Below are positions 1-52,240 of a stretch of DNA of 64,000 nucleotides, piece by piece; the first letter of the stretch is position 1, and each line of letters begins with the position of its first letter. The notes beneath the pieces were generated by a model, which worked only from the letters and a program-made list of their open reading frames with translations, was not told the origin of the DNA and ran no database searches. Made by a program: the position numbers and the translations under genes. The stretch is from Stentor roeselii. Its lineage: Eukaryota; Ciliophora; Heterotrichea; Heterotrichida; Stentoridae. The stretch lies in assembly GCA_006503475.1 (NCBI GenBank), contig RSEH01000207.1, positions 1 to 64,000 on the forward strand, in the 5' to 3' direction.

Positions 1-77
1 CACCCTAACACCCTAACACCCTAACACCCTAACACCCTAACACCCTAACACCCTAACACCCTAACACCCTAACACCC
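1..77. repeat. Telomere, CACCCTAA tandem repeat
   Basis: Nearly ten perfect tandem copies of the 8-bp unit CACCCTAA start at base 1 and stop at the sequence CACCCAGACAGG. An 8-bp C-rich unit of this kind is the telomere type of heterotrich ciliates. The C-rich strand reads inward, as expected for the left end of a linear chromosome. This marks the window as starting at a chromosome end, most likely macronuclear. Confidence 0.96.
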
Positions 78-486
78 AGACAGGTCGAGGCTAAATGAGA
101 CCCGCCCACCCATCTTGACCACAAACTCCCTAACACCCTATCGAAAATATACTTTTCATGGTTTATTTTTGAATTTCAAATCTTAATAATATATATTCAA
201 GTTTATCGATTGCTTAAAATATTTATAACAAAGTTCTTTCCAAAATTTTGTAATTTTCATTTCTTTAATAATCAATTTTCTTTCAATAGTTCCAAAATTT
301 ACATATATAATAAGTATAAGCCTTTATGTTAATAAGAGCGCACACATATATTATTAAAAAAGCATACAGTGTAATGAAATATTAGTCTTTTCGATGAAAT
401 AGTTTACATAAAAATATCAAGTATAAATAATGTGTCTATAAATGAAGTGTCTATATTTTAAAACTTAAATTTTATAGGTTAAAAAT
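78..486. other. Subtelomere: GC-rich patch, then AT-rich non-coding
   Basis: Bases 78-127 are clearly more GC-rich than what follows. A short second telomere-like island (CCCTAACACCCTA) lies at 128-140. From about 141 the sequence is very AT-rich with no supported gene. It must contain the promoter and 5' leader of the gene starting at 487. Confidence 0.6.
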
Positions 487-1450
487 ATGTCCTGCCAGTT
501 TCAAGGGTGTGTCGATGAGATAAAGTATATGTGCAAATCATGCAATGATAAAAAATATCTATGCAACTTTCATGCTGAAGCTCATGATACAAGCCATTTA
601 GTCGAACGGCTGACAATTACTCAATTAGAAGGAATTTCATTAGCATTAGCTAAAAGTCACATAAAAAAATGCATAAAAAATATTGCTGATGATAGCGCTG
701 CTGTAATTATTTCTATCAAGAGTGCTGCAAGAAAAGCAATCAATCAATTAAAATCGATAAACAAAAGTATTAAAAAGATTTCAGATTTTCAATTAGTTCA
801 TTTTGATAGTAGGAAAGTAAAATTCCTTACCGAGCAAGCATCTTGCATCTCAGATCAAGGCTTTTTTAAAGATGATTTTGATAAACTACTTACGGAAAAG
901 GAGTTTGAGTTGGCTAAAGTCAAAGCTAGATTAGAAGAATCAGAGAAAAATTTGAGAGAAATATCATCAAAAGTTTCTCAGGGTAAATATAAAATAGTGA
1001 AAATTATTAAGAATAAGGCTAAAATTCAAGGTTAAATACACTCAGAATTTAGAGCCACGCCTCTTAATCAGAAATTGCAGTACATCCTAAAAGCATGGGG
1101 CTTCGACATCACTAATCACAAAAATGTAGTTGAAATCCTTATATCAAATGATGGGAATTTTATTTTTATTTGTAATAACTACAAAGGTAAGAAATATGAG
1201 ATTGTAACCTACAATTAAGACGAATGTAACCTACAACGAAGATTGTAACCTACAACGAAGTATGTAACCTACATCGAAGCGCGTAACCTACATTTAGGTA
1301 AGGGATATAGAAGACTGTATCATCTACATAGTTCAAGTTTGGAACCTTGAAACTAAAAAACAAGAGTTTGGCGGACATTATGATTCTTCTGATGCAAGAA
1401 AATGGAAAGATCGCTACATAGAGTGCATCTATGAAAAGTGGGGCTATTAG
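487..1450 (+). CDS. B-box zinc-finger protein with WD-repeat-like C-terminus (spliced)
   Basis: The N-terminus has a Cys/His-rich B-box-like finger at residues 3-42 (C..C..CxxC..C..H..H), then a helical, probably coiled-coil stretch to about residue 180. The frame stops at 1033-1035 unless a 15-nt intron (1031-1045, GTTAAATACACTCAG) is removed. It then runs in frame to a TAA at 1216-1218, inside a run of intron-shaped repeats at 1204-1297. Removing that block (as one 94-nt intron or as five 15-16-nt introns) keeps phase 0. It leads to a tail containing VWNLETKKQEF, typical of a WD strand, ending at TAG 1448-1450. B-box proteins of this type are usually ubiquitin-ligase or scaffold proteins. 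The exon structure is inferred. The alternative is a gene broken by the repeat. Confidence 0.6.
1031..1045 (+). other. Probable 15-nt intron
   Basis: GTTAAATACACTCAG removes an in-frame TAA and keeps the frame open for 56 more codons. It begins GTTAA rather than the GTAA seen in the other introns here, so it is less certain. Confidence 0.55.
1204..1297 (+). repeat. Five tandem intron-shaped repeats (GTAACCTACA...AG)
   Basis: Five copies lie at 1204-1219, 1226-1241, 1245-1260, 1264-1279 and 1283-1297. Each is 15 or 16 nt, starts GTAACCTACA and ends AG. They are separated by 6, 3, 3 and 3 bases, so the period is mostly 19 bp. The whole block starts and ends at codon phase 0 of the surrounding gene, so it can be removed as one unit or copy by copy. 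Confidence 0.85.
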
Positions 1451-3189
1451 TTTAGATAATTAGATTAGTATTTGAAAGAAAATTGTATGAGTTTCCTTTC
1501 TTTTTGAGTAGTAGTCTAATATCTTTAATTCGTTTAAATATAATTAAAAAAAACTACACTGATGAAAGATAATAAATAAAAGCTGGATTAATTACTTAGG
1601 ATTGTTTGATCAATTGGTTGTATTTATATAATAATTTATAATGAATTAGCTGGCCTAAACTTGCTAATTGATCAATAACTCTGCCAGTAAGAGCTCAACA
1701 CAAAAGTATTCATACTTGCTATCTCTAGATGCATAGATAGAATATAATCTCAGTTTCAAAATTCCAGAAGTATTCGAAATATTTTCAAAGCAATTCTGAG
1801 GACTAAAAGTCAGCGAAGACCAAAGTCTTGGAACTTTAATTGGTCTTGAGCAAGGACTAATTCTAGTTGACAATATCAGGGCTGATTCAGATGAAAGCAT
1901 ATATAATCATATTCATGGTAAAGTCTTATATCTTGCGATTTCATAGTCAAACAGAAGAAATCAATAGAGACTTAGTAAGAAACAACTCCTTTTTCTTATG
2001 AAATTGATTAACGAATTCAATTCTTAGAGCGTGTAAATCAACAACTGCATGGCTTACCAGTTTATTTTCACAGTACCTCTAAAGATCTTGCAGGTATAAA
2101 TTTCTTTAATTTTAACCTAATGAATCTCAAATTTAACTCTTGCATTCATTTCAAGTGCTTCGAAAATTATTTCAGGAGGCCAAGATCATTACTTGATAAT
2201 ATTAACCTCTAGACAAGAAGTTGTTTCATGAAAATAGATCTTAAAGTTAAATGTCTTTATGTTCAAACACTAGTAAATAATCATTTGATGATCTTTCGGT
2301 ATAATAATGATATTCGAACTGTTAATATTGATATGCAAGTGCTAAAGTTTGCTTGATGGTCATCTTGATGAATTACTTTTCGAAATCTATGAATGTTAGC
2401 TACTGGAGGGCACGATCATTGAATATATATTTAAAAAATTGATAATCAATCATTTGCATCCATAATGAATGCACATGATAGTTGTGTCAATTGTTTGAAC
2501 TTTCGTAAAATTAAGAGTTACTTGCTAGCTATGGAGGCGACTTCTTCATTTGATATAGAATTGGAATACCATGGAAATGATAAGATTATTTAAATCTGAA
2601 AATAATCTTACTCACATATTTGTAGCTGAAGATGATTCTTTGGATTTTGATATAAAGTGGAAATAAAATTACTATTTGACAACTCTATGCTTATAAGATT
2701 CACCATCTCAATTATAAGGTCAGGCTTAAACATGCGTATTTTATAAAAAAATCAAAGGTATATGATTTTGATTAAATTTATGTTTTTTATCATCTGGAAG
2801 TTCGATTTAGTGAATAAAATAGTTAATGATTCTGAACTTGCTCATCTTTATTTATAATGAACTTATTAACATTCTAAGAATAACAGTCCAGAAGTCAATC
2901 ACCTGCTCATAGCGCAATTCTCCAGCAAGTAATAGTCAATAGCTTTTCTATTTACTCGCTTTTTAAAGTATTTCTTGATTGAGATAAGCAACTGAATATT
3001 GTACCACGGATGGTACACCTGATGGTTTTCTCTCCGGCAATTGTCATTAAGCCTTCTTGAATAGTCTGAAAGCTGTAAGAAGGGTAGAATGATTTTTTCA
3101 GTTTTTGTATATTAAGAGACGCTTGCGGAATCTTTCTAGTGCTGATAGTATTTCGCTTAATTAAAGTGCAGAATCTTTGTTGAAATACT
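1451..3189. other. Long AT-rich stretch, no supported gene
   Basis: No frame in this 1.7 kb stays open or shows a conserved motif on either strand. The texture (partly codon-like, interrupted by frequent stops, with echoes such as GGAGGCCAAGATCATT near 2176 and GGAGGGCACGATCATT near 2405) suggests decayed subtelomeric coding DNA. I could not identify the parent family. Confidence 0.45.
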
Positions 3190-4640
3190 TTTATTTTAAG
3201 TACTGTATATTCATTTTTGGTAGAAATTCATGATTAGGTAGAGTTTTTTTTAAGTTTGGAGAGATTGAGGATGGAAATATTAAAGGATTCTTCATGCAAT
3301 ATGTAAGCTCTTCAATAAGCCATAGAATTCGAAATAGCTCAGAAATATCATGCTCGATAAAATAAATTAATTTTTGAAATCTCATCCTTTTTCTAATTCT
3401 GATTCAACATGATTTTGAATAGCTTTCAAGCCACAAAATATTACTATTTTTCATTTGTCTAAGAAATGGTCAATGTTTTCTCTCAATATTTGAAATTTTC
3501 CAAATTAACCAGTTCTAGAATTACCATAAATAATGAAAAACCATCACATTTTTTAAATTTGTTCAACGCTTTAGCTAGATTCTTCAGGAATTCGATACTT
3601 CCCTGATTTTTGTTTTCTGAATTAAAATATTGTTTCTGATTTATTGCTGAATAAAGAAAGTGTATAATGAAAATATTGTAGTTATCATCGATAAGAAAAG
3701 ACTCAGAGTCAATATTTCGATGTAAGATGTTTTTGCTTATCATTAAAGAGAATGATTTACTTCATTCTTTCTTTCTTAACTCAAAAATTATGTCAGTCAG
3801 TGAGTATTGTATAATGATTGAGATTGATTACTAAAGAAAACTCAAAATGTTAAGGAAACTTATCATGCATAGTTTTTAATGAAAAGCTATCTACTTAGAT
3901 ATTGTAAGGTATGAAAAAAGTAAAGTTTATCTATTTACATATCATAAGGTATGAAAACAAGTTTATATGTCATCAAATAACTGCCATCCTTTTTATTAAT
4001 ACTGTGATAAAGCATTTTCGAAAGGTCAGCTATATTAGAGTTAACTCCTCTATCAAGAATTAAGATTCTCAATTTCGATGACTTGTACTCATTTATCTGA
4101 TTGCAGACATAATCAGGGAGCCTTTTTAAGTTATTTTCTAATTCAATGAACCAATATCCATCAGTATTGACTATAACCCCTGACTATTTCGATCCTGTTG
4201 ACAATAAAAATGATAAAATAACTGAGAATTTTCGATCTAATTGTGGTTTTGAACAATAAAATCAGGATTACCTCGAAAATGCTCTAAGCTATAAAATCTT
4301 TTTTCAATCTTTTCACAATTTTTAATAGTTTCCAGTTCCTGAACTTTGATTCGAGCCTCAACAAATTTTTTTTCTTGATCAATCTTTATTCCATCAAGTC
4401 TTCCTGATATAAAACTGTTGATCAAGCCCTGAAAATTTCCTTGATACTGAAATTTCGTGAGTACCAACTCATGAGAAGTGATTTTCTCAAGTTTATTTAA
4501 ATCTTCTTGAATTTTGATATCGAGATTTATATATCGCCGATATTTTGTGTTATAAGACACAGTAAGTCCTTTCTCTTCTCAATCAAAAACTTGATACGTT
4601 CGATCATGACTCAATGTATTCCAGGTTTCCATCAATTAAA
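3190..4640 (-). pseudogene. Decayed protein kinase gene
   Basis: Reading the minus strand, a segment at 3743-3483 contains ILHRNIDSESFLIDDNYNI followed by FIIHF. This clearly descends from a kinase catalytic loop and DFG region (HRDxKxxNFLIDDNYNIxIIDF), but the catalytic Asp and the DFG are lost. Further on, residues like CDGFSLFMVILELVNLENF resemble the kinase helix-F region. Upstream, 4632-4237 reads as a helical N-terminal part that begins METWNTLSHDR and meets an in-frame TGA after 17 codons. About 4190-3950 is another open fragment in a different phase. Several stops and frame changes separate the pieces, and no 15-nt intron rescues them. I judge this a pseudogene of one kinase. Confidence 0.6.
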
Positions 4641-4799
4641 TTTCACAAATGCACTAAATTTTGAGTTTAAAGTTTAATGGAAACTTTATATAAGAAAATT
4701 CCTATGATTTTGATTTTTTCAATTTTAAATAACATTAACTTTTTTATTCATTGAAATCGATTCACTCTATTGATATTCAATAATTTCCTCAATTTCTGA

Positions 4800-5330
4800 A
4801 TGATTAGCTACAATGCTCTCTATATGAAGGTGCTAACTTCAAATATCTACATGAGTTTTTCAGTTGTTAATCCATAAAAAGCTCCTTAATTAGTTTTATC
4901 GCTCAAATATTTCGCTTAAATCAGATCATAAGGTAGGATATGAATTTTAATCAAAATAGTATTTTCGTTTAGTATATTACAATTCTGAAACTCATTTAAA
5001 GTGTTACGGATATCTTATTGAACCCTATGATGCAGATTCAGTGGCTAATTTATTCAGAAGTTCAAGAGCAATTACCAGGCTCTAGCAAGAAATGGAAAAA
5101 GTCATATGAAAATCTATGAGAATTAAAAAATAGTCACTAAAATTACTATATATAATGAATAATCAAATTTCTCTTCAATCTTAGTTAAAGTTTATGATTA
5201 ACCCTTTGATATGCATATATTCATGGCTTGTGTTTGAAGGAAAGGATTGAAGGCTGTGGTTAGTTAAGCAGTATTTGTTTTTTATATGGAAAAAAGTTTA
5301 GGATTAATTCTTTAAGATTCCTGAAACTCT
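4800..5330 (+). pseudogene. Decayed ubiquitin E2 plus U-box copy
   Basis: Bases 4813-5107 align by eye with the E2 part of the intact gene downstream (7289-7600). The YEGGNF region survives as CTCTATATGAAGGTGCTAAC, and later segments match codon by codon but with stops and indels. Near 5195-5240, ACCCTTTGATATGCATATAT followed by CATGGCTTGTGTTTGAAGG matches the U-box core of the intact gene (7708-7748). No vWA part is recognisable upstream, where the minus-strand kinase relic lies. It is a dead duplicate of the E2-U-box module. Confidence 0.65.
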
Positions 5331-5972
5331 ATATTGATCCAATAGTATTGCCTGTGTTTTGATGTTTAAGTTAGCACTGAATTATATTCTAAGCTATATA
5401 AATCATGAAAATTCAATAAAAATACTACTTTGTAATAGTGAAATATAGTTTTTCTGATACTTAATATAATAAGAGCGCTTCATCAAATACTATGCAAGCT
5501 TAGGATACTTTACTGTAAAGAGTATAATAGAATCAAAGATGGGAATTTATACAAATAAAGCAAATATAAGATCCTTTAGAGCCTCTACACCAGAAGGTGA
5601 AAGTGGTTTACAGCAAGTTCATCATTTTTTTAAATATTGCAGCTTTCGCATTACTAAAGTGTAGTCTGCTTGATAAGAACTATGAAATGACTCTCTCCAA
5701 GTGGTAAATACCACCTAGAACAGAAGAAAATATATGTAAATAAAAGTCTCTCCTACACTGATAAATTGTAGGTCTTAAAACCAATCTTCCTGGCATTGCA
5801 AGTATAATAATGAGCAGAAATATAAAATATAAAGTTCTAGGCTTTTACTGAGGCTCTTTTATCATGAAAAAATTAACTTCCCTCACTATTATTTTTTTTT
5901 CAGTTTTCTAATCAATTTCATCAGTCCCTGGGAATGATTTAAAAGTTCTTCAGATTAAGTGAGTTGGTGATA
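5331..5972. other. AT-rich spacer upstream of the vWA-E2-U-box gene
   Basis: No open frame or conserved motif was found. It should contain the promoter of the gene starting at 5973. Confidence 0.5.
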
Positions 5973-7879
5973 ATGATGACAAAATTTGATAGATCTTATG
6001 AAATTATTAAAATTCTCGCTCAGGGACCTACTATTAGAAATATGAACAATTTTGAATCAATAAAAAATAAAAGGTATGTAACTCAAATTACTAGTTATTT
6101 AGAATTAAAACAAAATCAAAAAAGATATACTCTCACTTATAATCTCGAGAAAAAAATTGTAATAAATGAAGGTTTAAAGATGTGCTCAAATTTAATTACT
6201 TTGAAGGATGCTTTCTCAGATTCATTAACTGATATAGACCCTTCTGACCTGGCTCCAGTTTTTGAAAATTGTTTAAACAATTTACATAATCAAGATAATA
6301 GAAATCCTCAAGTTCAAGAAGAAAATTATTCGAGAATCCCAGATGAGGCAATAGCAATTTTACTAGATACTAGTGGGTCAATGGGAACAACTTATCTAGA
6401 TACAGAGAAGGTAAGGCTCTCGATTGCAAAAGATTTTTTAAACTCTTTTATCAATAGATCCTTAGGATACAATCTACCTCAAGTCATTTCACTTATCACT
6501 TTTAATGACTCAGTAAAAAAAATCACAGGCTTTACTGAAAATGCTTTCAAATTCTGTCAAAGGCTTGAAAAAATTGAAAGCAAAGGAAATACCTCAATAT
6601 TTGATGCAATCGTTCTTGCAATCAATGACTTAAAAGAAATTAAAAACAAGTATAATAATATAAAGACTAGAATCATTTGCTTTAGTGATGGAGAAGATAA
6701 TTCTTCGAGTAATTCTGAGACTTTGGTGTTAAATACTTTAGTTACCAGTAATATTGTTCTAGATTGCATCAACCTTGGAGAAAAATGCATCAGTTTAAAA
6801 AATGTGTCTCTTTTGTCCGGTGGCTTCGCATTTTGGTGTGATAATGTTGAACAAGGTTTCAAAATTTTTGAATCAGATGCTTTTATTTCGTTAAATTTTA
6901 GAATACCTTGGGAAACTTGTGATACAATTTCAGCTTCGAATTTAAAATCAAGTACTTTTAAGAGTTTTACAACAATTCCTCCACCGTTTAAAAAACCTAA
7001 TCAAATTAAGTTGCAAGCATCGAGTATTGTTTCGGCTCTGGTTACTATGGAGATAGCTAAACCAAAATTTGAAACTACTACTGGATCTTTAAGATTCAAG
7101 AGAATTAACCGTGAGATGGCTTTAATTCATAAAAATCAAAATGCTGATATCCAAATTTACCCGTGTGATACTGATATTCAGTTCTGGAATGGAATTCTTA
7201 CAGGTCCACAAGGATAACGCAAATTTTATTTTCTTTCTGTTGATTAATCATCCCGATTGTTTCATTTCACCTTCAGGATTATTAACTGCAAGGCACTCTT
7301 TATGAAGGTGGTAATTTCCATATCTATATAATTTTTCCAGAAGAATATCCATACAAAGCTCCTGAAATAAGGTTTATCACGCAAATATTTCACTTAAATA
7401 TTAACTCCTCAGGAAGAATTTGCATTTCAATCTTAAATAGTGACTATGGGCCAGAAATTACAATCCTTAAACTTCTGCAAAGTATTTATGGACTATTAAT
7501 TCAGCCTGAGGATGTAGACTCGCTAGATACAAATGTTGCTATTTTATACCGAAGCTCAAAAGCAAAATACGAATCTTTAGCCAGAGAATGGACAAGATTA
7601 TATGCAAGTAGATCAGCATTAGAACTTCTTAATGGAATTAGTGAGAATGAAATCAACAATAGAATTCCTGTTGAATACCTTTGTAATCTTACAAAAAATA
7701 TAATGATAAACCCAATGATATGCAGGACTTCTGGCCTTGTGTATGAGAAAAGTGTAATTGAAAAATATATCAACGAAAATGGTGTCGATCCTGTTACTAA
7801 ACAACCCACATCATTGAAAAAATTACTTCCTGATAACTCTCTCAAAAAATCGATAGAAAGATTCAATAAATATAGTTAG
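5973..7879 (+). CDS. vWA - ubiquitin-conjugating E2 - U-box fusion protein
   Basis: With one 80-nt intervening sequence removed, the gene encodes about 608 residues. A von Willebrand A domain (about 124-310) has an intact MIDAS: DTSGSMG at 132-138, GNTS, and the SDGEDN loop. An E2 fold (about 372-520) shows NGILTGPQGTLYEGGNF, then FPEEYPYKAPEIRF, HLNI in place of HPN, and the active-site Cys in GRICISIL (about residue 457). A U-box (about 538-604) runs from IPVEYLCNLTKNIMINPM to the end. E2 enzymes carry ubiquitin as a thioester and U-boxes recruit such E2s, so this protein could be a self-contained E2/E3 that picks targets with the vWA domain. The start is the first ATG at 5973 (a second at 5976). 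The join is described under 7209-7288. If it is not spliced, translation stops at 7217 after 30-odd E2 residues. Confidence 0.75.
7209..7288 (+). other. 80-nt intervening sequence bounded by CAAGG direct repeats
   Basis: CAAGG occurs at 7209-7213 and again at 7289-7293. Removing 80 nt (one CAAGG kept) joins GGT CCA CAA GG to C ACT CTT TAT, giving GPQGTLYEGG, the exact E2 consensus across the break. With the 80 nt in place there is a TAA at 7215. No GT-AG pair reproduces this join. The nearest GT-AG option (7204-7292, 89 nt) would delete the PQG residues. It could be an unusual intron, a retained internal eliminated sequence, or an inactivating insertion. Confidence 0.7.
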
Positions 7880-8829
7880 CTAAGTTTAATTCTTTTGATA
7901 GGTTGAATAATGAATTGATTTTTAAGATTGAATATTGGATAATTCATGAATTTTTTATATGGTACAATTAAGATATTAACAAATAGATATAGAATAATTT
8001 TGTTTTATTTGGTTCCAAATAAGATCTATTTCAAATATTACTGAACTCTATTTGTTTATTATTGTGGAGTTTGTGACTTCGTCGACTGGAAAAGAAGAGA
8101 CTCATAGGAAAGAGTCAGAAGATATGAAAGTGTTTTTATGAGTGAGGAGCATATTGATCATTTTAATTTTATATATTTTCTGAGTATTCAAATAGAGTTG
8201 ATATTTTTAGATGATTAGAAGAGTTCTGAGGTATATTGATTTTTTTAGTTTAATAATTTATAAGGTATAGTATAAATTTTTTAAATTATTGATTTTAGAA
8301 ACTTTGATGACTGTTGATTTAGTTAGCATGCAAAATAAAAACTTCTATATTTTTTTATAGACAAAAAATTGTAGGACAATTATTTAAAAAGTAGACAAAG
8401 AGAATGATAATTTTATTATAAATTTTTGTAGACAAATATTTCAGGCATATCTTTTTATAAGTAGACAGATAAATGAAATATTTCTAATTATTAACCAATT
8501 ATTTAAAAGTAGACAGAGAAAAGAAATTCTTTGATTTAGATTTTTGTAGTATAAAATCATAAAACGAATTCTTGAATAATAGATATCTTGCTTTACACAA
8601 ACTTTGTAGGCTGATTCTTTATTTCAAAATATTTTAGATAAAAATTAATAATTATTTTTAATTAAAAAACAGCAGCGATATCAAAAGGATTATATAGAAA
8701 AATTAAAAGAAAATCTTTTGTCTGTCTTTGTGATTCTTAATAAGATCAATTTCAAAATCCCACAACATTTTGATTAATATCTATTATTAGAATGTCTATA
8801 TTTAAACCTAAAGACTTATAATAATAAAT
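7880..8829. other. AT-rich intergenic with GTAGACA motif cluster
   Basis: No gene is supported in this 950-bp stretch. The heptamer GTAGACA recurs at about 8391, 8428, 8461 and 8509, with a near copy ATAGACA at about 8357. Two of them are preceded by CAATTATTTAAAA. Function is unknown. Confidence 0.5.
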
Positions 8830-10038
8830 ATGGAACCTATTCATATGAAGCGTTCTTGTATGTTTGGAGATGTGGCTCTCTTAAGAAGAGATAATAATCC
8901 TGGAATGATGTTTCAAGAAACAACAATTTCACCATCCATAGGCTCAAAAGATAATTCACTTGTTCAATTCGCTTCAGGAGGTACAGGATTTTTAGTTTCG
9001 ATAAAACGTATAAAAATCTGCGGATTAATCCAAAAACTTGCTTTAATATTAACAGCCTCCCATGCAATAATGGATATCGTGAATTCTAGGCTTTACTTAG
9101 ACAGAATAATTTGTTTTTTAGAAAATGATAAAATTAGAGTATCATATCTAGTAAAAAATTTCATCGATAGATCAACAGATAGCTATGTATCTAATTTCAC
9201 AAATTCGAGTTATTGTGGTGGGTCAGATATTTCAATCCTTCTTATGCAACTGGAAGATACTGATGATGTAAATTGCTATCAATTAGAATCAAATTTTTAT
9301 TGTGGAGAAAGTTGTTTTATTTCTGGCTTTCCGAAAAAACCTAGCGATTTTTTATATTCAGTACCTCTAGTAAACAACACAAGAGAAGCAGAATTTCATG
9401 CGAATTTAATTTTCTGTGGTTACGATAAAAAAATCTATTCTAATGGTTTTATAGAAAGTTTCAACAACGGTTTAGTTGAAGTATCATGCTCTACTACTAA
9501 TGGTCTTTCTGGCAGCCCAATTATTACGAATGGAAAAGTCATAGGAGTGTATGCAGGTGGGCCGCCATTACCCGGACAGAAAGAAATAATTAATATATTG
9601 AAAATGTTTGATCGCGCAGACCTAGAAGAGATATTAAATGAAGTTAAAGCTCTAACAGCACTAGATATATACTATAAACTTCCGATTTTCGCATTAATTG
9701 TAAAATCTACATGTGTACGTTCCCTTGAAGTTATGCATCGTATTAAAAATAAAGAAATATTACAAGAAAATGAAAAGCTAAAGTTTAATCATATTATTAA
9801 TAACCCGAGTATGTTGGAAATTTACATAGAGGCCACTATGAATGCTCTGGCTCAAAATTTGAATTCCGCTATGTATCAAACAGTCATATTATTTTCTGAA
9901 AAAACAAATTTTTTAGCTAATGTCGGAATATCTACGAAAAGTGTAATATTTGGAGAAATCTTTCAAATCATTGAAAAATTCGATAAGAAAGAAGAAGATG
10001 ATTCATTAGAAAAATTAATAAATAATATTACCAATTAG
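8830..10038 (+). CDS. Trypsin-like serine protease, cytosolic type
   Basis: The 402-residue protein has a chymotrypsin/DegP-type catalytic triad: His78 in LTASHAI, Asp133 in GGSDISIL, and Ser228 in TNGLSGSPI followed by VIGVYAGG. GTGFLV near residue 51-56 is the first beta-hairpin usual in this fold. There is no signal peptide or membrane segment, so a cytosolic or nuclear location is inferred. After about residue 255 a helical tail of about 145 residues has no recognised domain. The ATG at 8830 is preceded by an A-rich leader. It lies in a subtelomeric zone with long flanks, unlike the packed genes after 14 kb. Substrates are unknown. Confidence 0.8.
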   Translation: MEPIHMKRSCMFGDVALLRRDNNPGMMFQETTISPSIGSKDNSLVQFASGGTGFLVSIKRIKICGLIQKLALILTASHAIMDIVNSRLYLDRIICFLENDKIRVSYLVKNFIDRSTDSYVSNFTNSSYCGGSDISILLMQLEDTDDVNCYQLESNFYCGESCFISGFPKKPSDFLYSVPLVNNTREAEFHANLIFCGYDKKIYSNGFIESFNNGLVEVSCSTTNGLSGSPIITNGKVIGVYAGGPPLPGQKEIINILKMFDRADLEEILNEVKALTALDIYYKLPIFALIVKSTCVRSLEVMHRIKNKEILQENEKLKFNHIINNPSMLEIYIEATMNALAQNLNSAMYQTVILFSEKTNFLANVGISTKSVIFGEIFQIIEKFDKKEEDDSLEKLINNITN

Positions 10039-11270
10039 GATTAGTTACTAATTCTTGATAATAATTTCTAATAATATATATCTACTTGAACTTAGATATT
10101 AACCTAACTCTAATATTTATTAGGAAGATTCCTATAATATAAATCAAAATAGATGGGTAAGTTAGCATAAGTTTAAAATTTATAATTAAGTTATATTTGA
10201 TATGTTTTTTACCTATTAAGATAAATTTTTCTTATCATAAGTCATTTGGAAGAGTTCTAAAATTTTTGATGGTGACATTTTGTTACTTAAAACAGCATTT
10301 CTTCAAACAAGAGCGCTTCATATGCATAGGTTCCAATTTATATTGATGTTACATTCTTTAAAATAAAAAACCAATCTACAATTTTTTTGTGATATTACGA
10401 TGCCATTTAAGTCAGAAATTCAATCCTAATGTTATATTAAAAAACTTATAATTAAATATTCACATTTTGTATCAGCTTTAACAGCCATTATTATATTTTA
10501 GATTTAAATCTCTTATAAATCCCCCTGGCTGAAGCCAGGTGGCTACCAGGTGGCTTCTAGGGCCCTACAAAGTTCTAGCAGAGGTCACACTTGTTAAATC
10601 TTGTAATGCTTCATAAAAAAAAAATTTCTGTTTCATGCTCAAATTAGAAGGTTTTGGTATCAAATCCAGAAAAAAATTAATTACTAAAACCTTTAAAGAA
10701 TGATTAAATATATTATACAAGTTTATCCTTATCCAAATGTGATAGATATTTAGTATATTTAACAAAAACAGAAAAAAATTTTATACATGAGTTAAAAAAA
10801 TACTTCAAAATATAGCAGAAATATTATCGTTTTTTAGAATTCAATAAAAGTGTAAATCTCAATGAACTTGGAAGTAATAAATTAGTGAAAATATTTTCTT
10901 CATTCGGAGAATTCATGAAAATTTAAATGATGGTGAAGATTTCAAGGGTCTTCCAATGAATAGTTCAAAGGAAACATCAATACAGCAAACGATTTATTTG
11001 AAGCTTGTATGAGGTGAATATGAATAAATAAAATCATTAATCTATAAATAATTTACTAACATGCTTTACTTTTAATTTTCTTATATCATAGTCTTTCTAT
11101 ATCAATTTCTAAGCCATCTAATTTTTTTATTAATCAACACCTTGAAGTATTGTCTTGATTTTTCTAGAACTTGATTTAATATCTATGCATAGAAATTTTA
11201 AACATAACTTACTACAGAAATATTCACTATGCATCTAAATAATATTATACCTAATTTAATATTCATTAAT
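10039..11270. other. AT-rich intergenic; small GC-rich palindrome at 10521-10568
   Basis: No gene is supported on either strand. A short GC-rich island stands out near 10521-10568. It holds the inverted repeat CCTGGCT-GA-AGCCAGG (10524-10539) and two direct copies of AGGTGGCT (10537-10544, 10548-10555). Confidence 0.5.
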
Positions 11271-12977
11271 CTAATGCAAATTAGAAAACGTTCTAGTTGC
11301 AGGGATCATGTTAAAGAATGCCAGAGCTTCTGAAAACGAAGGCCTTGTATTTGGATCAACAGAAAGCATTTTCCCAATAGCCTTCTTAGTATCCTTCGAA
11401 ATCTCCGTAATATTCTGAATATCATTAAAAATAATTTCAGGAGTCATATTCTGTACATTTTTATAAGTAAGCAACTGGTAAAAAACAAGTCCAAGAGCAT
11501 AAACATCAGCCTTTTCCCTGTTAAAATTAGCTGTTTTCTGCCCAGCACTCAAAGCAGCCCTCTGCTCAGGCGAAATATATCCTTCAGTGCCCTGTATAGG
11601 AAAATAGCCAGTAGCCGAGAAGGTAACATCTTGAATCTTAATCAAAGAGATATCAAAATCGATTATTTTGATATTCCACTGGTCATCAATCAACATATTG
11701 TGAGGTTTGATATCATTATGAAGTATACCCAAGTCAGCCATTGTTTTAAAAGAAGAAACCAGCTTGTAAGTGACAATCAAATACTGCACTTCGCTGAACT
11801 TAAATTTTATTTCTTTCAAATGATTGATGTAGTCCATTAAATTACTTTCATACCATTCCATAACCATGTTGATTTTACCATTCTCAAGGAAAGTCCCGTA
11901 ATACTTCAAGAAGCAGTTCGTGTTGTCAGCTAATTTCGAAAGAGCTTCATAGATCTTTATTTCTTTCGTCGCCTTTAAAAGGTCTGCCTGTTGGGTTGAT
12001 GATGAGTAAACTTTAACACAGACTGGGGTTCCTTTCATGTCTCCATCAAAAATACTGATCTTTAGTTTACCTTTAGGCATCATATATCGAGCTGGTTTTT
12101 TCACAGTGATCAGCGATTTGTCAAAGTTGTAAATTCCTGAATCAAGGCTTGAAGAACTTGCAGGTTTTGATGAGGTTTGAGGAACTTCTGATGGTGTCGG
12201 CTGCAAGGTGTTATCCAATAAGATTTTCAGCTCTTTCGCTTCTTTTCTCACATCAGGATCTTCACAAATTTCTTCTAAATTTTTGAGTAGTTCGGCAGAA
12301 GCAATTATTTTTGATTCTTTATGTTTTCCTGTGATATTTAAATTATTTGAAGACAAGGCTTGGATGTACTTGAAAACAAATTCAGCTGAAGCGTAGGCCA
12401 TGTCCTTTGTGTATAGACCGATTCTCTTAGCGATCAGCAACTGGTTTATTACGTATTTAATGTCATTCCCTGGAATATCGGCTTCACTAAACACTTTAAT
12501 TTTTGTCCAAAGTGAAAAAAGGAAAATATTTGCCTGCTTTTTAAAGAAAAAGTTGAAGTTTTCCAAGTGATCTTCATAGATTTTTACTATTTCTGCAAGT
12601 TTCAAAGCATTATAAAGAGCATTTTCTTCATCGAAATTGCAGAATTCATTCAACAATATGTTATCAATACACTTAGCAACTAATTTATTTTTCTCTGAGT
12701 TGGTTACTATCAGTGCTCCATAAAGAGCCCAATTAAGATAATTTGTAAAATTTTCAATGTTTGTAGTAGAAATACAAGAACCAGAGCTTTCACACTTAAG
12801 AAGGAATATAATCGACCAATATTCGAGTTGGCCCTTGTTTCCTTGAATAAGTGGTAGAGTCTCTATGAGGGTCTGAAGGGAAGAGTTATAGTCCAGATTA
12901 AGCAGTAGTTTTGAACTTGATTGCTGTTTTAGGTTAGAGTGTAAAAGTCTCGCATGTGAATTGAGATCTACTGACAT
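11271..12977 (-). CDS. Atypical protein kinase with helical N-terminal region
   Basis: The protein has 568 residues. About 1-285 are helical and unrecognised, and the kinase domain spans about 300-560. The ATP-site lysine is in VCVKVY, the helix-C Glu in ATKEIKIYEAL, and the catalytic loop is GILHNDIKPHNML (HND in place of HRD, catalytic Asp kept). The metal-binding motif is IIDFDIS (DFD in place of DFG, Asp kept), and GTEGYISPEQ is the APE-like segment. The usual glycine-rich loop is not clear. The key ionic residues remain, so activity is plausible. Large kinase families are typical of ciliates. The 5' end at ATG 12977 is the first in frame. The target is unknown. Confidence 0.85.
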   Translation of the reverse strand: MSVDLNSHARLLHSNLKQQSSSKLLLNLDYNSSLQTLIETLPLIQGNKGQLEYWSIIFLLKCESSGSCISTTNIENFTNYLNWALYGALIVTNSEKNKLVAKCIDNILLNEFCNFDEENALYNALKLAEIVKIYEDHLENFNFFFKKQANIFLFSLWTKIKVFSEADIPGNDIKYVINQLLIAKRIGLYTKDMAYASAEFVFKYIQALSSNNLNITGKHKESKIIASAELLKNLEEICEDPDVRKEAKELKILLDNTLQPTPSEVPQTSSKPASSSSLDSGIYNFDKSLITVKKPARYMMPKGKLKISIFDGDMKGTPVCVKVYSSSTQQADLLKATKEIKIYEALSKLADNTNCFLKYYGTFLENGKINMVMEWYESNLMDYINHLKEIKFKFSEVQYLIVTYKLVSSFKTMADLGILHNDIKPHNMLIDDQWNIKIIDFDISLIKIQDVTFSATGYFPIQGTEGYISPEQRAALSAGQKTANFNREKADVYALGLVFYQLLTYKNVQNMTPEIIFNDIQNITEISKDTKKAIGKMLSVDPNTRPSFSEALAFFNMIPATRTFSNLH

Positions 12978-14000
12978 TATTTATATTAGATAAAACTTTT
13001 GAGGAAAAGCTATTGAATTCATTAATTTTGTTGAAAGATTTGCTCTATGAGCAGCTAGGGCTGAAATAAATTTAATTAATCCTACATTTTTTTAGGAAGA
13101 AAATACTTAGAAGATCTTGATTAAATTTTATTAGAGGATTTATGATGGGACGCTCTGAATTTTACAGTTATAGTTATTTCAATGCTTAAGTTTATTTTGA
13201 TCAATCATTATTAAATGATAGTTCTATCAGTGCACTTTGAATTTGTTTTTTTTTTTCAGTTATCCACGTTTATATTCTTTACTTTCGGCCGTTTAAAGAG
13301 ATAGCTGCCATGAAGTCTTAAATAATTGGTTAGGTTTGTGCCATTCTTATTATTATACTATAAAAATTTATCTTTCCTTTAGTTGATCTATCAACAAACA
13401 TTTACATAAATGGAGTTTTGTTAATGTCATTTTGTTTTGAATTTACCTTTAGTCGTGCATTACATTTTATTCTTTTTTTGGAAAGGTAAAACAACTTAAT
13501 CTTAAAATTTTTGAGTAAGAATGGAAAAAATGTTTAAAAAATGCATAGAGTATTTCATAGAAGAATATAACAATCATAGAAGACAGAGTCCTCTAAATTT
13601 TTACCTTTCCTTTTCCTTGTGTAAAAATCAATATAATAATTAAGATTAGTAAAACCAATTAAAGTATAATTATCACAATTGAAAATGGAACTATTTAGAT
13701 AATCAAACTATAAGATGATACAAATGAATTACATTCAATGATTTCATAATTTCATTCAGATCGAACCATGCAATTAAATGATCAAATTATCTAAATAAAC
13801 AATAAATCATTAACCAGATTACCATCAAACTCAGCTTATAATTTCTATAAATTGACTTCAAGGTACTTTATCTTATTTACGATATTCAACTTAAATATTT
13901 AAATTTCTTAACTTCCCTCATATAAATTTTTACTTTCAAGTAAACCTAATCTCAAATAATCTTGCAAAATATCAAAACACGATTAACTCCTTTAAAAAAT
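12978..14000. other. AT-rich intergenic between divergent genes
   Basis: About 1 kb without a supported gene on either strand. It separates the minus-strand kinase from the plus-strand MoaA gene and so holds both promoters. I see no recognisable element beyond T-rich and A-rich runs. Confidence 0.5.
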
Positions 14001-50854: not shown

Positions 50855-52240
50855 CTACGCTGGTTCACTTTCAGTTATCACTTCATGGATACCGTTCGGG
50901 TACTGCAGAACTCGAACTACTACTTCGATGTCCCCTCGACATATATGGCAAGTTCCAACATCTTGATGCAGTTTTGAAGCACATTCAAAGCAGATCCCTC
51001 CGTGACCACAGTTCATTATCACTGCATTTGAGATTTTTTCCATACATGTCAAACATTTTTCAACGTCGATACTCGCCATGTTGGTATCTGAGACTTTTTT
51101 TTGCTTTTTCGTGAATTCCTCACTTGTGATTGACCTGCGATGGAAAAGTTGTTCAACTGGAACCACTGCGACACTTGAAGTTCTTTTCTTGGCAGGGCGG
51201 AGGTTTGAAGGAACTTGTTTGAAGTAAGAACTGGAAAGTTTTACTAGAAATTTTGGAGTATTGCTGATGACTGAGATAAATGAAGTATGTTCTCGTCTTT
51301 CAGGTGTTATTTGAGTTATTTGGACTACTCTTGAATCAGGGTCAAATGTTAGGAACTGGGTCAGACTTAATAAGAGATAGTTTCTTAAGAAATAAGAAAA
51401 AAAAACGAAAAGTATCAAAAAGATCAACGGAGGGTAAAAGTTAGGGGATTGAGATGCTAGTGAAATAAAAAACAAGGTGAGGACTATCATTGAAACTAGT
51501 AAAGATAGGATCAGGTATATCGAACCTGATATTTGAACACGGTAAAGTCGAGTGTCCACGTAAAGACCTAAGGAAAAAAAAAAGAGTCCTAAAGTCACAA
51601 GTCCGATGATGCTGATAAAAGACCAGATTGGCCAAAACGTCAGTGACCAGTCAAAATTGTAAAAATTGTCGATACGGAAGAAAATACTCACGCAAGTCAA
51701 AAGTCGCACCACTCGAAGCATGATGAACATCTAGATGATTTTTACAATTTCTGAAAAAATCTGGCATTTGTTGAAAGAAATCGATTTTATCGAAATATTT
51801 CCTAATGTGCTTAGACTTAAAGGCACCAGGCTGAAGATTAAAGGAAAATTTCGAAGTTGCAGGTAAATTACGACCATGAGCTTTGTGGATGATGTGCCGA
51901 TGTTTTCGATGATTTCTTTTAAAATCAGTCTTTTTTCATAGCTAAATTTTTTTTACTCTTCTTTTCGGATTCGAAGTGAAAGTAGCGACTTGAATATTGT
52001 GAATAGGTCTGAAAGGACTGAAGGAATGAAACATATTACTAGAGGTATATCGACTTTTTGCCATAATAGCAACAGCAAAAAGGTTATTAAATACGTCGAT
52101 GCTAAAAATAACCATTTTTCGAACTCTTGTTTGGAGAATGAGGAAAATGTTGAATTTGATTCAGTTTGCTCGGTTTGAAGACGCTCGGAAGGGTTGGAGT
52201 TGTTGATTTCTTGGGGTTCTGCCATGTACTGATTTTCCAT
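50855..52240 (-). CDS. Multipass RING-finger protein (TMEM185-like), three exons
   Basis: Exons 52240-51957, 51941-51746 and 51730-50855 join through two 15-nt introns into 451 residues. The N-terminal half has several membrane spans (WLFLASTYLITFLLLLLW, LVICFIPSVLSDLF, FPLIFSLVPLSL, then WPIWSFISIIGLVTLGLFFF and IYLILSLLVSMIVLTLFFIS). This pattern resembles the TMEM185/Fragile-X-F membrane family. The C-terminus has a RING of C3HC4 type (CLTCMEKISNAVIMNCGHGG then CFECASKL and CHICRGDI), suggesting a membrane ubiquitin ligase. The spliced model adds two upstream exons. Reading only from 51730 would lose the first spans. Confidence 0.85.
51731..51745 (-). other. 15-nt intron 2 of the TMEM185-RING gene
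   Basis: GTAAAAATCATCTAG on the minus strand, phase 0, ends in an in-frame TAG. Removing it joins SEI to MFIML. Confidence 0.9.
51942..51956 (-). other. 15-nt intron 1 of the TMEM185-RING gene
   Basis: GTAAAAAAAATTTAG on the minus strand. Removing it deletes an in-frame TAA and opens 65 further codons of membrane protein. Confidence 0.9.

Follow-up and report, generated by a model that had tools for sequence, protein, structure and literature searches.

The window, meaning the whole 64,000-nucleotide stretch analysed, comprises the first 64 kb of contig C124 in a genome assembly of 44.4 Mb and 522 contigs (G000). The contig begins with a telomere, and a gene copy combining a vWA domain, an E2 domain, and a U-box lies 6 kb from this CCCTAACA array. 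The features at the locus are as follows.

3..74 (no strand): nine CCCTAACA repeats forming a telomeric array where the contig begins
4754..5238 (+): decayed remnant (E2 and U-box start) of another member of the gene family, with in-frame stops
5955..7217 (+): first open part of the window gene copy, homologous to the paralogue C112 from about residue 458, containing the vWA domain and the E2 start
6351..6737 (+): vWA domain (PF00092, E 1.3e-8; PF13519, VWA_2, E 9.4e-17)
6366..6380 (+): MIDAS motif DTSGS, by direct reading; retained as well are the Thr in GNTS and the Asp in FSDG
7209..7293 (+): 80-nt interruption, with CAAGG direct repeats at 7209–7213 and 7289–7293
7289..7591 (+): remaining E2 domain (PF00179, UQ_con, E 3.1e-29), of UBE2D type by phmmer
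7391..7399 (+): HLN of the E2, by direct reading
7421..7423 (+): codon of the E2 active-site Cys, by direct reading
7664..7870 (+): C-terminal U-box (PF04564, E 1.2e-15)

The copy is divided between two open reading frames. The first (5943–7217, +) has its first ATG at 5973 and ends at TAA 7215–7217, and the second (7286–7879, +) is closed by TAG 7877–7879. The UQ_con match in the second frame starts at profile position 38, and the missing first quarter of the E2 profile is carried by the 3' end of the first frame. The original prediction had described a vWA domain complete with MIDAS, an E2 that keeps its Cys, and a U-box at the C-terminus, all sharing one frame once 80 nt are removed, and both the sequence and the profiles confirm this arrangement. 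In the Pfam comparison proposed along with it, the VWA, UQ_con, and U-box profiles all matched the window frames, and omission of the 80 nt reproduced the predicted 608 residues. The change of HPN to HLN with the Asn kept was also borne out by direct reading.

Subtelomeric setting

The decayed remnant at 4754–5238 lies directly upstream of the window copy on the same strand. It matched C112 at 70% over 4810–5237 in blastn (E 1e-45) and at 36–38%, with stops and a frame change, in tblastn (E 3e-10). Positions 1–14000 of the window are an AT-rich subtelomeric block with few long frames, in which the first seven 2-kb steps have a GC content of 27.5–30.6%; further on, GC reaches at least 34% in 21 of 25 steps and long frames are dense. 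Downstream of the gene copy, 8330–8560 is a low-copy dispersed AT-rich repeat with matches of 74–86% on contigs C8, C214, C187, and C112, the last of them located downstream of the intact paralogue. Next to the gene copy, 8812–10038 (+) is an intact frame of 408 aa with a weak match to a trypsin-like peptidase (Trypsin_2, E 1e-4, under the cut-off).

Several features of the genome could be compared with those of other heterotrichs. The telomere repeat CCCTAACA is the one reported for Blepharisma, the introns of which are mostly 15 and 16 bp according to the same report (PMC9942806). The two confirmed introns of the present genome, both in the E2 gene L025, are 15-nt GT-AG introns, the removal of which restores the E2 sequence. 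Within the window, a scan for GTA-AG stretches of 12–30 nt that join open frames yielded 18 candidates, among which 15 nt was the commonest length (4 of 18); two 15-nt candidates lie, in plus-strand coordinates, at 51942–51956 and 51731–51745, away from the kinase gene at 11271–12980. Among 39 frames with a length of 250 aa or more, 18 end with TAA, 18 with TAG, and 3 with TGA. In the three long frames ended by TGA (from the window and L037), another stop follows one, three, or seven codons on, perhaps as a back-up. No TGA occurs within the intact frames of the vWA–E2–U-box family, which exceed 1000 codons. If UGA encoded Trp, as reported for Blepharisma stoltei (PMC9942806), such codons would be expected there, and the genome is therefore probably that of a different heterotrich. 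Together with a SHIPPO-repeat gene, the telomere repeat, the 15-nt introns, and the stop usage are in keeping with the macronuclear genome of a heterotrich ciliate, the group to which the original prediction had pointed.

The paralogue family and its domain structure

Four further copies of the gene were found in the genome, on contigs C112, C207, C507, and C152, encoding proteins of 1070, 1069, 1048, and 1113 aa, respectively, from the first Met. In each of them, the vWA, E2, and U-box domains occupy a single uninterrupted frame, the UQ_con profile is covered from position 1 to 137–139 of 140, and UQ_con, U-box, and VWA_2 exceed their Pfam cut-offs; for the U-box profile (cut-off 21.4 bits), the same holds for the window copy. 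Unlike these four, the window copy has an E2 split by the 80 nt. All five copies retain the MIDAS pattern (DxSxS...T...D) and the catalytic Cys in a GRIC or GSIC context. The HPN triad is altered in all five to HLN, HIN, or HCN, with the Asn kept and the Pro replaced by L, I, or C. In the aligned parts, identity to C112 was 77% for the first and 87% for the second part of the window copy, 55% for C207, 44% for C507, and 29% for C152. Adjoining the C152 copy is a presumably tubulin-like frame (L013, 3–959, +) with a length of 318 aa or more.

Since four paralogues encode all three domains in one open frame, the vWA–E2–U-box fusion is real and not a product of chance. In the window, a stop separates the two halves, which also differ in frame, as would be the case if two neighbouring genes, one for the vWA part and one for the E2–U-box part, only appeared to be joined or if the join were an assembly error. 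However, paralogues on four other contigs carry both halves in one frame, and the second half lacks the E2 start, with which the first half ends; this makes either of these explanations extremely improbable. The claim of a single gene thus stands for the chain itself; it does not stand as a claim of a working gene at the window locus, where the copy is truncated at its 5' end and interrupted by 80 nt that make a poor intron. Nor does 608 aa hold as the length of the full product, the family protein being 1048–1113 aa long.

The family accounts for five of at least 19 U-box matches in the genome and five of at least 29 matches to an E2–U-box query. In a tree of 16 E2s from the genome, the five fused E2s clustered with a support of 0.873, and the four closest among them with 1.000. 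Separate trees for the vWA and E2–U-box halves both paired the window copy with C112 and differed in the placement of C507.

The intact copies have about 450–455 additional residues N-terminal to the point at which the window copy begins. In a genome-wide search, the lost N-terminal 455 residues matched at four places, all of them intact paralogues, and nowhere else. This region contains a degenerate U-box-like segment, which hhalign recovered with a probability of 64% (E 6.4e-5) in a comparison with eight U-boxes of the genome, four of them the family's own; C152 also matched zf-Nse at E 1.1e-5 as a whole protein and 8.5e-4 as a piece, both under the cut-off. The region possibly includes ubiquitin-like folds: a full-length model of low confidence (mean pLDDT 47.9) has a secondary structure suggestive of two or three beta-grasp folds. 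The third C152 segment matched PF00240 at E 3.2e-4 as a cut-out piece, under the curated cut-off, and at E 0.017 in the whole protein. Four of six cut-out N-terminal pieces scanned against Pfam had no match at E 1, the probabilities were 2.2–2.4% when three segments were compared by profile with 11 domains of the ubiquitin family from the genome, and a PDB profile search for the ubiquitin-like segments had no match at E 10. On these profile comparisons, the degenerate U-box-like segment is better supported than the ubiquitin-like folds. Elsewhere in the genome, PF00240 has 104 matches (E 0.001), many of them in tandem (e.g., on C80, C288, C50, and C453), forming a large ubiquitin-like expansion.

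The interruption and the state of the window copy

When aligned with C112, which is continuous at this place, the window copy showed homology up to 7213 and again from 7289. A search of the genome with the 80-nt insert, in which very common words were skipped, returned only the insert itself. The 80 nt were rejected as a canonical spliceosomal intron: no suitable GT-AG pair is present, and the confirmed introns are 15 nt long. None of the GT-AG pairs between 7150 and 7320 restored the conserved length on removal; four of them keep the frame, each at the cost of conserved residues. For example, removal of the 89-nt stretch at 7204–7292 preserves the frame and deletes P-Q-G from the GPxxTxYEGG stretch. 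In ciliates, a TA is expected in the boundary repeat of an internally eliminated sequence (IES), a rule that may not hold in the Stentor roeselii lineage. The boundary repeat here is CAAGG, which contains no TA, and the insert accordingly does not qualify as a TA-bounded IES. The end of the insert was also considered as a decayed copy of the E2 start or of the neighbouring remnant, a likeness seen by eye. The shuffle test did not support this, since the smallest tail count across eight targets was 196 of 1000 and came from an unrelated control stretch. One ungapped match of 77%, between 4789–4840 and 7267–7318, reaches about 22 nt into the insert, and this stretch in fixed register may still reflect such an origin.

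The missing N-terminal part, the 80-nt insert, the proximity of the telomere, and the decayed neighbour speak for a damaged subtelomeric duplicate as the most likely identity of the window copy, which would have lost its 5' part and gained the 80 nt.

The coding sequence itself shows purifying selection. Over 614 codons, which contain no stop in the window copy, the comparison with C112 gave dN 0.115, dS 0.767, and dN/dS 0.15, with ratios of 0.18 on the vWA side and 0.09 on the E2–U-box side. When changes were assigned to branches, codons with a single change had non-synonymous to synonymous counts of 29:54 on the window branch and 26:60 on the C112 branch, a tally that omits 63 unassigned changes and 49 codons with multiple changes. 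Counted by site and with the help of two outgroups, the figures were 53:59 for the window and 51:53 for C112, with 123 changes unassigned; these divide into 46:39 and 37:33 on the vWA side and 7:20 and 14:20 on the E2–U-box side. Of 141 positions that do not vary among the other four copies, 5 are changed in the window copy; for C112, the corresponding figure is 4 of 140. In neutral simulations (500 runs), a divergence of 0.05 produced a mean of 4.3 stops and left 1.6% of runs free of stops; at a divergence of 0.02, 16.6% of runs were stop-free. Because of the purifying selection and the stop-free codons, the window copy appears to have been under selection until recently or to be so still, which argues that it is not long dead and either died recently or still works.

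These data bear on a second explanation, that the window copy is a working gene which loses the 80 nt (or 89 nt) either by splicing of an atypical intron or by DNA elimination, yielding a shorter protein that starts at ATG 5973 and lacks the N-terminal region. Such a gene would account for a window branch about as constrained as the C112 branch, with nearly the same number of changes at otherwise invariant positions, for the absence of stops in 614 codons where the simulation at a divergence of 0.05 averaged 4.3, and for the frame-preserving 89-nt GT-AG stretch. Nevertheless, both confirmed introns are 15 nt, the GT-AG pairs tested never give the conserved length and the 89-nt one loses P-Q-G, the insert is flanked by CAAGG repeats that contain no TA, the N-terminal part has been lost, and a decayed sister copy adjoins. 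We therefore consider a working gene at this locus rather unlikely and regard the window copy as a duplicate that was probably inactivated recently.

Predicted ubiquitin transfer and relation to known E2/E3 hybrids

Ubiquitin transfer usually depends on separate E2 and E3 proteins that pair. The simplest reading of the family sequences is a self-contained E2–E3 ligase with a vWA binding arm. In the mechanism that we infer, E1 would load ubiquitin onto the E2 Cys, the linked U-box would activate the E2~ubiquitin either on its own chain or inside a dimer, and a substrate or partner would be held by the vWA domain; ligase activity, cis transfer, and targeting by the vWA domain, which the original prediction proposed as a metal-dependent target reader, are thus predicted properties. 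A one-chain ligase is supported by the domain order in four copies, the retained catalytic and MIDAS residues, and purifying selection. Our main reading, to which we assign a probability of roughly 0.6, is that the five copies form a family of ubiquitin ligases in one chain, built from an N-terminal region, a vWA domain, an E2 of UBE2D type, and a U-box, with the window copy as a subtelomeric duplicate that was probably inactivated recently.

By sequence (phmmer), the nearest solved relatives of the E2 domain are UBE2D (UbcH5) structures, which are also its fold match, with UBE2E close. The AlphaFold2 (AF2) model of the E2–U-box half of C112 has two folded domains (mean pLDDT 86.7, pTM 0.62), and the modelled E2 superimposes on UBE2D and UBE2E structures at about 1.7 Å, with a target-normalised TM of up to 0.94 among the matches listed. 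The family E2 differs from UBE2D in being embedded in a chain of more than 1000 aa, in its altered HPN in all copies, and in its changed loops in four of five. The solved relatives of the C-terminal U-box are PRP19 (E 2.3e-7), the bacterial LubX (E 3e-7), which ranks between the other two, and CHIP/STUB1 (E 3.3e-6). The intact paralogues have no further Pfam domains in common with PRP19 or CHIP, and residues 1–788 of C152 matched no PRP19- or CHIP-type chain in the PDB. At E 0.01, the window vWA domain had four solved sequence relatives, all of them Rpn10 of the 26S proteasome (best E 2.6e-5). The DxSxS motif is intact in the family and reads DNSEW in the aligned S. pombe Rpn10; beyond the likeness of the vWA domains, nothing links the family to the proteasome.

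The top fold-search match of the C112 E2–U-box model was the UbcH5B–RING fusion 8v0d, in which an E2 is followed by an E3 domain in one chain, as in the family. The domain placement of 8v0d, which is titled a fusion structure and is presumably engineered, was not reproduced in the model, the rmsd over both domains being 18.9 Å. Because of this value and the low confidence of the linker between the E2 and the U-box, docking in cis is not supported, and the modelled placement neither favours nor rules against action in cis.

In E2 enzymes, loops of the WSPA type are the usual docking surface for an E3. The UBE2D-like stretches YPFKPP and QWSPA are retained in C152 and in L014, a free UBE2D-like E2 of the same genome, and are altered in the other four copies, in which WSPA is replaced by Y-G/A/S-PE. 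To judge from these residues, the altered loops could weaken binding of the U-box.

Some of the substitutions would also suit a family E2 that is catalytically weak or only a scaffold, in a protein that acts as a U-box E3 with separate E2s: HPN is altered in all five copies, and the second residue after the Cys is Ser or Ala in the family where L014 has Asp. However, the Cys and Asn are retained in all five, the E2–U-box half is the more constrained one (dN/dS 0.09), and the E2 fold appears intact in the model, and we find this explanation unlikely. Distinctly less probable still is that the chain transfers a ubiquitin-like protein of this genome in place of ubiquitin. The 104 PF00240 matches mean that several modifiers could exist, but the E2 and the U-box are nearest to enzymes of ubiquitin itself (UBE2D, PRP19, and CHIP).

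The original prediction had also stated that E2 and E3 activities are normally on separate proteins and that no vWA–E2–U-box chain was known. The first part needs qualification, as BIRC6 and UBE2O are established E2/E3 hybrids that, like the family, combine an E2 (UBC) domain and an E3 function in one chain, as described in PMC13061254. The family differs from them in that its E3 part is a U-box and a vWA domain precedes the E2. To our knowledge, neither BIRC6 nor UBE2O has a U-box or a vWA domain before the E2. The second part agrees with our literature search, in which no vWA–E2–U-box protein was found in titles and abstract starts among the matches listed, eukaryotic protein databases being outside its scope. 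No relatives were confirmed in viral contigs or prokaryote genome contigs, which says little because those collections hold no eukaryote genomes. Given that BIRC6 and UBE2O exist, the vWA–E2–U-box chain is an addition to the known E2/E3 hybrids.

More tentatively, and with less confidence than we place in the family of one-chain ligases as such, the proteins may represent a near-complete ubiquitin relay in one chain, in which a vWA-guided E2 would be activated in cis by its own U-box and the N-terminal region would contribute a degenerate U-box-like module and ubiquitin-like folds. The family would have undergone expansion and recycling through duplication and decay in a heterotrich lineage, its docking loop and U-box drifting jointly away from trans partners. 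As a fixed natural pair of E2 and U-box joined to a binding domain, the family proteins offer a ready test of cis transfer and of the evolution of E2–E3 pairing, for which C152, with its QWSPA kept, and the four loop-altered copies form a natural comparison series inside one genome.
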